DNA of 47,325 bases, taken from NCBI GenBank assembly GCA_001786835.1, contig MFTO01000011.1, forward strand, positions 4,152 to 51,476, in the 5' to 3' direction. Shown in pieces: positions 404 to 27,791 of this stretch. Under the pieces are notes generated by a model, which was not told where the DNA came from, made no database searches, and worked only from the letters and a program-made list of their open reading frames with translations. A program made the position numbers and the translations under genes. Origin of the DNA: Candidatus Nomurabacteria bacterium RIFCSPHIGHO2_01_FULL_40_20. GTDB lineage: Bacteria > Patescibacteriota > Minisyncoccia > Phycocordibacterales > UBA9973. Every line of letters begins with the position of its first letter. The first letter of the stretch is position 1.

Positions 404-418
404 AGGTAAATTATAGCA

Positions 419-492
419 CCCGGATAGTAGATTTTGCCAATGCTTTGAAAAACAAAACGCACTTTAGCGCTTTGGCAAAATTCACTACCGGG
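419..492. repeat. Palindromic element, family 3 (CCCGgTAGTAGATTTTG...CAAAATTCACTACCGGG)
   Basis: Imperfect long inverted repeat; homologous to 27048-27118 inside the cysteine desulfurase ORF. Confidence 0.75.
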
Positions 493-8767: not shown

Positions 8768-8839
8768 CCCGATACTAAAATTTTAATTAATAATTTTTAA
8801 TCTTTATGCCCCGTAATCAAAAATTTAGTACGGGACAAG
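8765..8839 (-). repeat. Family 1 TIR element overlapping the rpsK start codon
   Basis: Minus strand: TCCCGTACTAAATTTTTGATTACGGGGCATAAAG...TTAAAATTTTAGTATCGGGATG; strongly similar to the infB leader. Confidence 0.85.
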
Positions 8840-24504: not shown

Positions 24505-25068
24505 TTATGGGTTGGGTGGAGGTGGAGGTGGAGGTGGAGAAGTGTCGGTATCTGTATTTGGGTCCGGGTTCGGCGGAGGAATAGTTTCGGGCTTGGCCAA
24601 TTCAACAATAGTAAAATCTTTTTCTTTTTCCACTGTTATCTTGGAAACTTTCTGTTCGCCTAAAATACTTTTTACAACATATACTTCCCCTTCTTTCGGT
24701 TCTTCAATTACGGAGGCTATGACGACTTTGTTATCACCTAAAAATAATCCGGTCCCTAAAATTTTATCTTCGCTCCCGTCGGCATTTGCTCCTTTCAAAA
24801 ATAAAGTGACCACGAGCGGTTTTATGGCTTTCAAATCTTCCAACAACTTTTTCTGTTCAGCGGATAATTCTTGAGTCTTGATAATTGTCTCTCCGGGCAC
24901 AATTTTCTCCACTGTCTCTCGCACTATCTGGGTCACCGGAATGGTGACAGACTCGGGGGCTTGTTCCATCAAAGTCACCGTGGTTATGCCGGTGGCAATA
25001 GAAATAACGAAAGAAAGCAGTATCGCCAAAAGTATCAGCTGTGATTTGTTTAAATCCTTTAGGTCCAT
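24505..25068 (-). CDS. Membrane-anchored protein with C-terminal Pro/Asn/Asp-rich tail
   Basis: 187 aa; N-terminal TM helix; tail [24 protein letters not shown]. Confidence 0.6.
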
Positions 25069-25148
25069 CCCGTACGAAATCCTACTATTATTTTTTCTAG
25101 TAAGACTTATTTTACCTCATAAGTGAACCCCGTAATTTCGTACGGGAT
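25067..25148 (-). repeat. Family 1 TIR element overlapping the start codon of the 187-aa gene
   Basis: Perfect 14-bp TIR ATCCCGTACGAAAT/ATTTCGTACGGGAT. Confidence 0.9.
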
Positions 25149-25722: not shown

Positions 25723-27153
25723 CTAATAATACCACTTTCTGAGTTTGGACAAAATGCTTTCCATAACTTTGACCGTGTGGTCAATATCTCTCTTTTCAGT
25801 GTCTCTTCCGAGCGAAAATCGCAAGCTGGTTAGATTTTCTTTGCGCAATGCCCCGATCACGTGCGACGGCTTTTTGTCACCTGATTTGCAAGCGCTTTTT
25901 TCGGAAATGTAAATCCCACGGGCGGAGAGCTCGAGCACCAGCAGGTCGCTTGGAATTTTAGCAATTGTGATATTCACATTGTTTGGTAGTCTGTCTTCCT
26001 TATCGCCATTTAAAACTATTCTATAATTCTGCAGAATTAGAGAATGCTCAAGTAAGTGCAAAAAATAATCACGCAGTTTTGTTAAACGTTTTGTTTCGCT
26101 CTCTTTCATACTCTCTGTGATTTGGAGCGCCTCCGCGAGCCCCACTATAGCAGGCAAATTCTCTGTCCCCGAGCGCATTCCAAACTCTTGCTCTCCGCCA
26201 TACACTATATCTCCTATCGGTGTTCCTTTTCTTATGTATAGCGCCCCCACTCCTTTCGGCCCATAAATTTTCGCGCCATTGAAAGACATCAAATCCACAC
26301 CCAGCTTTTGCACATCTATCGGCAAATAATTCATCGCTTGCGTAGCGTCGGTGTGAAAAAAAGGCAAAAGTGGTAATTTAGAGGCTTGGGAGAGCGACGG
26401 CTCGAGCACGAGGAATTTTTCAGCAGAAAAATATCCGTACTCTAAATTACCACTTTTGCCTTTTCTATATTGCCTTATCTCCTTCGCAATCTCCCTTATC
26501 GGCTGAATCGTGCCGATTTCGTTATTGGCATACATTACCGAAACCAAAACAGTATTTTTCTTTATCGCTTTTTTAATTTTTTTAGGGTCTACTATTCCAT
26601 TCGGTTCAACTGGAATGTAGCTAACCTCTGCACGTTTAGTTTTTTCTAAATGCTTGCAAACTTCCAGCACGGAGGCATGTTCTATGTTCGTCGTAATTAT
26701 GTGTGGAGCAAGCAAGCGATTTTTTAGTGTCTGGTTGAGACCGCTCTCCTTAGAAGATAATGCGCGGGCGACCCGAAGACCGAAAAAATCGCTTGCTTGC
26801 ATAGCACAGATAACTCCAAGTACGCCCAGATTATTGGATTCCGTAGCTCCAGAAGTAAAAATTATCTCTCTTTTTTGCGCTTTTAAAATTTCCGCCACAC
26901 GCTCACGCGCGTCCTCTAAAATTTTTTTATTTTGCACACCCAGTTCATGTATTGCGCCGGTATTGGCAAAATGCACACTGGAGACTTTAGCTATAATCTC
27001 TAAAACTCGCGCATCAATCGGAGTCGCCGAAGCATTGTCTAGGTATACCCCGTTAGTAGATTTTGGTAATACTCGCTTTGCGAGCGCACTTTGTGCCTTA
27101 CCAAAACTCACTACAGGGTATATTATTTTCTTTTTTCCGTTTGATTTAGACAT
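25723..27153 (-). CDS. Cysteine desulfurase (NifS/IscS-like) with three palindrome-derived segments
   Basis: YLDNASATPID; TSGATESNNLG; HTDATQAMNYLPIDV; MSFNGAKIYGPKGVGALY; RSGTENLPAIVG; start moved to MSKSNGKKK. Confidence 0.9.
   Translation of the reverse strand: MSKSNGKKKIIYPVVSFGKAQSALAKRVLPKSTNGVYLDNASATPIDARVLEIIAKVSSVHFANTGAIHELGVQNKKILEDARERVAEILKAQKREIIFTSGATESNNLGVLGVICAMQASDFFGLRVARALSSKESGLNQTLKNRLLAPHIITTNIEHASVLEVCKHLEKTKRAEVSYIPVEPNGIVDPKKIKKAIKKNTVLVSVMYANNEIGTIQPIREIAKEIRQYRKGKSGNLEYGYFSAEKFLVLEPSLSQASKLPLLPFFHTDATQAMNYLPIDVQKLGVDLMSFNGAKIYGPKGVGALYIRKGTPIGDIVYGGEQEFGMRSGTENLPAIVGLAEALQITESMKESETKRLTKLRDYFLHLLEHSLILQNYRIVLNGDKEDRLPNNVNITIAKIPSDLLVLELSARGIYISEKSACKSGDKKPSHVIGALRKENLTSLRFSLGRDTEKRDIDHTVKVMESILSKLRKWYY
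26359..26464. repeat. Palindromic element, family 4, in-frame in the cysteine desulfurase
   Basis: Perfect 25-bp arms AAAAGGCAAAAGTGGTAATTTAGAG/CTCTAAATTACCACTTTTGCCTTTT; internal ATTTTTCAGCAGAAAAAT. Confidence 0.92.
26707..26800. repeat. Palindromic element in-frame in the cysteine desulfurase
   Basis: Perfect 18-bp arms GCAAGCAAGCGATTTTTT/AAAAAATCGCTTGCTTGC. Confidence 0.92.
27048..27118. repeat. Palindromic element, family 3, in the N-terminal coding region of the cysteine desulfurase
   Basis: CCCGTTAGTAGATTTTGGTAATAC...TTACCAAAACTCACTACAGGG; resembles 419-492. Confidence 0.8.
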
Positions 27154-27181
27154 AAAAGTAGTATATATTGAAAAGACATGG

Positions 27182-27262
27182 ATCCCGTACGAAATTACGA
27201 GCTCCATTTACAACATAACATAATTCTGTCTCAAAAAATAATGACGGGATTTCGTACGGGAT
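27182..27262 (+). repeat. Family 1 TIR element overlapping the start codon of the DUF4446-like gene
   Basis: Perfect 14-bp TIR ATCCCGTACGAAAT/ATTTCGTACGGGAT; the terminal AT plus G forms the ATG. Confidence 0.9.
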
Positions 27263-27724: not shown

Positions 27725-27791
27725 TCCCGTACTAAATTTTTGACTACGGGACATAAGGAAAAGAATTATTATTAAAATTTTAGTATGGGAT
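27725..27791 (+). repeat. Family 1 TIR element overlapping the infB start codon
   Basis: TCCCGTACTAAATTTT...AAAATTTTAGTATGGGAT(G). Confidence 0.85.

Follow-up and report, generated by a model that had tools for sequence, protein, structure and literature searches.

A palindromic element family of Patescibacteria with one copy in frame in a cysteine desulfurase gene and another between genes

How does a single palindromic element family come to be coding at one place and noncoding at another? The question was raised by a window (the whole stretch of DNA analysed; 47,325 nucleotides of Candidatus Nomurabacteria bacterium RIFCSPHIGHO2_01_FULL_40_20, contig MFTO01000011.1, positions 4,152 to 51,476), for which the first-pass annotation had proposed that an element forming the N-terminal extension of a cysteine desulfurase, just before YLDNA, has a homologous intergenic copy. 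In its canonical orientation the family reads along the minus strand of the window, and the features compared were:

25723–27153, minus strand: gene of an IscS/NifS-like cysteine desulfurase, with MSKSNG at 27153 as its likely start (Pfam PF00266, PDB relatives, orthologue alignment, promoter comparison)
27048–27118, minus strand: coding element copy of 71 bp (core CCC..GGG), reading in frame with the IscS/NifS-like gene
27044–27047, no strand: TATA target-site duplication on the YLDNA side of the coding copy (direct-repeat analysis)
27119–27122, no strand: TATA target-site duplication on the start-codon side of the coding copy (direct-repeat analysis)
419–492, minus strand: noncoding element copy, 74 bp, flanks TAGCA / TAACA

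The two copies belong to the same family: local alignment gave a score of 65 (best of 2000 shuffles, 31), so that the proposed homology is significant, and the positions first assigned to both copies proved exact. The cores are bounded by CCCC...GGG at 27048–27118 and by CCCGG...CGGG at 419–492. When either copy was used as blast query against its own genome (550,711 bases, 77.7% complete), the other copy was retrieved, as were further copies on contigs C2 and C13 and fragments on C20; one further copy, on C10, was found with the covariance model. The copy at 419–492 lies between ORF 107–403(−) and ORF 498–2255(−), and the idea of one family coding here and noncoding there is supported by the pair. 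The first-pass annotation did not include the target-site duplications, the promoter context of 419–492 or the in-frame copies in further genes.

The coding copy reads YPVVSFGKAQSALAKRVLPKSTNG within a 494-aa ORF (25723–27207, minus strand), immediately ahead of VYLDNASATP, as had been claimed; the N-terminal reading of the desulfurase is MSKSNGKKKIIY-PVVSFGKAQSALAKRVLPKSTNGV-YLDNASATP. The 71-bp core and one TATA make 75 bp, in frame between the codons for KKII and YLDN, and without these 75 bp the sequence becomes the canonical KKIIYLDNASAT, the insert-free form that L042 has. The element site is empty in the IscS orthologues of relatives. Against a start of translation after the element, no ATG, GTG or TTG is found between it and YLDNA; an in-frame GTG is present inside the element itself. 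The start MSKSNG lies upstream (MxKSN is conserved in relatives; orthologue alignment), preceded by a leaderless −10 (TATACT-6 nt-ATG) that is likewise conserved, and the element is therefore placed within the coding sequence. From the sequence, the copy would be translated as an N-terminal segment of ~25 residues; tryptic peptides predicted across the insert junction are IIYPVVSFGK and STNGVYLDNASATPIDAR. In its fold the desulfurase agrees with human Nfs1 and E. coli IscS, and the closest cysteine desulfurases on named contigs are largely from Candidatus Nomurabacteria. The phmmer alignment to solved desulfurases begins past this insert and breaks at two others of the same gene:

26359–26464, minus strand: second in-frame palindromic insert, of another family; its 25-bp arms are perfect and most relatives lack it
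26708–26800, minus strand: third in-frame palindromic insert, another family

In the AF2 model pLDDT is low (about 30–65) at residues 1–32 and in both other inserts, and above 90 in most of the core; the N-terminal segment is probably disordered and close to neutral.

The family has inverted ends CCCnGTAGTGA...TCTACTAnnGGG enclosing two small hairpins; in the alignment, copies in one orientation read CCCnGTAGTGAnTTTTGG...CCAAAATCTACTAnnGGG, and the fold is a long stem topped by the two hairpins. For 37 aligned matches (36 copies and one read on the opposite strand) the covariation score was 0.399 (shuffles, 0.147; slid structures, ≤0.087), with base pairing in 97.5% of cells and double changes at 20 of the 30 pairs; this alignment was fitted to the model and leans towards structure. 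With the covariance model, whose E-values are rough, the family was found in 37 of the 80 genus genomes (matches 67–84 bp long) and, patchily, across the order (26/197 genomes; 23/140 genera). Shorter relatives of ~36–40 bp with the same arms are also present. In each of 20 carrier genomes the arm pattern occurs 1–14 times, the backwards control being almost absent. At G180:C20:16515–16788 four copies stand in tandem (67–69 bp each). The Rfam search of the window returned tRNAs only and no matching family; viral contigs contained no copies (exact 22-base pattern); and a literature search, with subscription papers mostly outside its scope, returned no paper tying such elements to Patescibacteria.

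For the study of mobility 76 copies were collected with their flanks; they are not fully independent (47 independent flank clusters after grouping of homologous flanking genes), and the genomes are drafts. A flanking direct repeat of ≥5 nt was present in 49 of the 76 copies vs ~5 expected (right flanks swapped between copies); usual repeats are TAGCA, TGCTA, TGTTA, TATAA, TCAA and TATA. The length of the duplication varies from 3 to 6 bp, partly from overlap of element ends and flanks, and some copies are diverged or lack a duplication. Insertion is confirmed by empty sites. Nothing interrupts the iscS promoter (TTTTCAATATATACTA..ATG) in the own genome or in most relatives examined; in G034, G011 and G005 the element is inserted there between two TATA copies.

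Further in-frame copies, in both orientations and in different frames, were found in TatD, a PEBP protein and two prepilin-like genes. TatD of G035 carries the insert and the site is empty in TatD of the own genome; the latter protein (L005, contig C20), although without the element, has other peptide inserts relative to G035 (NPSTGSGQVTPQR and HPASGGARG). In the PEBP protein of G079 the insert lies past the N-terminal hydrophobic segment. In one prepilin-like gene (KGFT-[insert]-GFTIIETM) the insert is confined to the own genome and G021; matches to this KGFT protein occur in 71 of 80 genomes, and nearly all of them, except own/G021, begin at query residues ~20–34, at, after or near the insert end. 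The second (G023 and G014; G-[F..TTGF]-VILFAVT) has no significant Pfam match. In both prepilin-like genes the insert stands ahead of a regenerated G/F site. Prepilin peptidase removes the leader at G/F and, since the insert precedes that site, would be expected to remove it together with the leader. In neighbouring pilin-like genes of relatives (L313, L315, L316, L317, L318) apparent inserts of several unrelated repeat families stand in frame just before the G/F cleavage site, the repeat at this leader place in L313 being GFTHTPRFGVTPKGGGFTLVEA; palindromic elements may possibly find a safe harbour in prepilin leaders. The in-gene count leaves out copies that lie a short way upstream of real genes (L167, L187, L191, L216, L218, L219); ORFs crossing elements in L160, L194 and L203 were rejected as genes (no Pfam match; they resemble frames opposite or upstream of genes).

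In our view the element is very probably a transposable palindrome of a MITE-like, non-autonomous kind, which was inserted in frame in IscS and persists where harm is low. The MITE traits present in the family are terminal inverted repeats, target-site duplication, short length, lack of a transposase gene and dispersal in many copies. In the mechanism proposed, an element of ~70–80 bp with near-perfect inverted ends and two small internal hairpins would be inserted into AT-rich T...A sites with a 3–6 bp target duplication by a transposase that presumably acts in trans and makes short duplications. Intergenic survivors would be those directly upstream of promoter cores, with the −10 and the start codon left intact; survivors in genes would be those in which element and duplication together are a multiple of three, the frame used has no stop, and the peptide falls where it can be tolerated (N-terminus, surface loop, cut-off leader).

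The noncoding copies bear on another reading, according to which selection maintains the element for a function in cis (as promoter-upstream element, attenuator or structured RNA), the in-gene copies being accidental. The window copy adjoins a promoter:

404–418, minus strand: leaderless extended −10 promoter adjoining the 419–492 copy, GGG-TGCTATAAT-TTACCT-ATG of ORF 107–403(−)

The copy is directly upstream of the extended −10, and its core end is 15 nt from the ATG. Of the whole collection 23/76 copies (16 independent clusters) directly adjoin TGnTAnnnT in fixed register; among TNNNA flanks the motif was found in 23/67, vs 4.5% of promoter-proximal TNNNA sites at the same loci (p ~1e-14, kinship uncorrected). 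It is directed at the adjacent ORF in 15 of the 23, and the distance from the matched element to the start codon is often 14–15 nt, which fits leaderless promoters. The register, the enrichment, the spacing and the strong structural covariation would all suit a cis-acting element, but the covariation could also come from transposition needing the hairpin. Moreover, presence at the same gene is patchy between close relatives, with clean empty sites; both orientations are found; and copies also adjoin TTGAC (8 copies) or TTATCCAC (8 copies) or sit in coding sequence. We regard selection for a cis-acting role as unlikely.

Copies may adjoin promoters either because the element chooses such targets or because harmless insertions survive there. 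On a more specific and tentative form of the MITE reading, which we put at somewhat under an even chance, insertion would be steered to the extended −10 (TGnTAtaaT) of leaderless promoters, in its melted state or as recognised by sigma, and TGnTA would be duplicated, so that a working promoter stays; the in-gene copies would be insertions into chance AT-rich sites that kept the frame, and prepilin leaders a safe harbour for several unrelated families. The copies adjoining TTATCCAC(A), a DnaA-box-like motif, are L171, L174, L204, L210, L161, L164, L203 and L212 (8/76 vs 0.065% of intergenic positions).

As to the enzyme, we also weighed whether this is an element of REP/BIME type for whose movement a RAYT (Y1, TnpA-REP) transposase is responsible. 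GTAG stands near the ends in both arms, with a conserved stem irregularity, and PF01797 is present in 55 of the 80 genus genomes. HUH/Y1 insertion is not expected to create flanking direct repeats, and those observed speak against movement by RAYT. Further, the GTAG is paired and internal, on both arms, and is not the unpaired terminal tag of the definition (PMC3733652); no copy lies within ~1.5 kb of 30 Y1 genes; and the Y1 gene is absent in the own genome (77.7% complete) and in G079, which has many copies. Movement by RAYT thus appears quite improbable. An IS1380-type transposase (PF13701) was tried as partner of the MITE-like element on account of its 4–5 bp duplication and CC ends, and was rejected: it was found in 1 of 80 genomes, at a locus without the end motif GTAGT(GA/AG)A. 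Searches with PF13701 and PF01797 and with the end pattern in 20 genomes gave no transposase with matching ends.

Domestication of the inserted peptide, giving IscS a new function (e.g., partner binding), would agree with the open frame and with the retention of three inserts in one gene; it is nevertheless highly unlikely, the insert being unconserved in orthologues and of low predicted order, and the inserts at the same desulfurase loops differing from relative to relative. Chance similarity or an assembly artefact, for which the draft state of the genome is the one argument, is refuted by the copy number, there being independent copies in many genomes, an insertion shared with G021 and significant scores.

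Other palindromes of the window were noted in passing. The family of 26359–26464 (also L232–L251) has matches in 63 of 80 genus genomes and consists of a conserved ~70 bp core between inverted arms that differ from locus to locus; over the 14 nt adjoining the core, complementarity averages 87% within one copy and 38% between copies, which looks as if each insertion had made an inverted copy of its own target. We know of no transposition mechanism that would yield inverted target copies. Cores related to the 26708–26800 insert occur in 8 of 80 genus genomes. A different intergenic palindrome with ATCCCGTACGAAAT-type arms lies at 25067–25148, 27182–27262, 27725–27790 and 8773–8830, and at least three more families have two window copies each (5319–5420/14660–14752; 42075–42174/46406–46462; 15–52/12865–12909).

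Palindromes that code for protein segments have been presented as peculiar to Rickettsia (and Wolbachia). The presence in Patescibacteria of an unrelated mobile palindrome, with its clear target duplications and empty sites, indicates that in-frame hairpin insertion is a wider route to peptide segments in reduced genomes, and provides a system with enough relatives to ask how such insertions are tolerated. In CPR proteins, selfish DNA may be the source of odd N-termini and loops, and the precise abutment on promoters makes target choice testable.

Among known systems, GTAG-tagged REPs/BIMEs (PMC3733652) are likewise small dispersed palindromes with GTAG and an imperfect stem; the family described here differs in having GTAG paired in the stem on both arms, in its target duplications and in the lack of RAYT linkage. 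With bacterial MITEs (Correia/NEMIS, RUP, ERIC; PMC2229807, PMC10969869) it shares terminal inverted repeats, target duplication, absence of own coding and an intergenic location near promoters, and it is distinguished from them by two hairpins on a long stem and by a new host group; the searches with PF13701, PF01797 and the end pattern gave no parental insertion sequence. The nearest parallel is offered by the Rickettsia palindromic elements that lie in frame (RPE; Ogata et al. 2000, 2002, in the account of PMC10969869 and PMC2229807), from which the present family is probably distinct and which are likewise short palindromic selfish elements, intergenic and in frame in unrelated conserved genes, with tolerated peptide inserts. 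RPE are ~105–150 bp long (~70–80 bp here), belong to another phylum and probably differ in sequence; their target duplication is marked '?' in PMC2229807 and is visible here; they have one conserved peptide and frame, whereas both orientations and several frames are used here; and the preference for promoter-adjacent insertion is a feature of the present family and not of RPE. In-frame insertion into unrelated conserved genes, the RPE-like trait, was found in IscS, TatD, the PEBP protein and the two prepilin-like genes.
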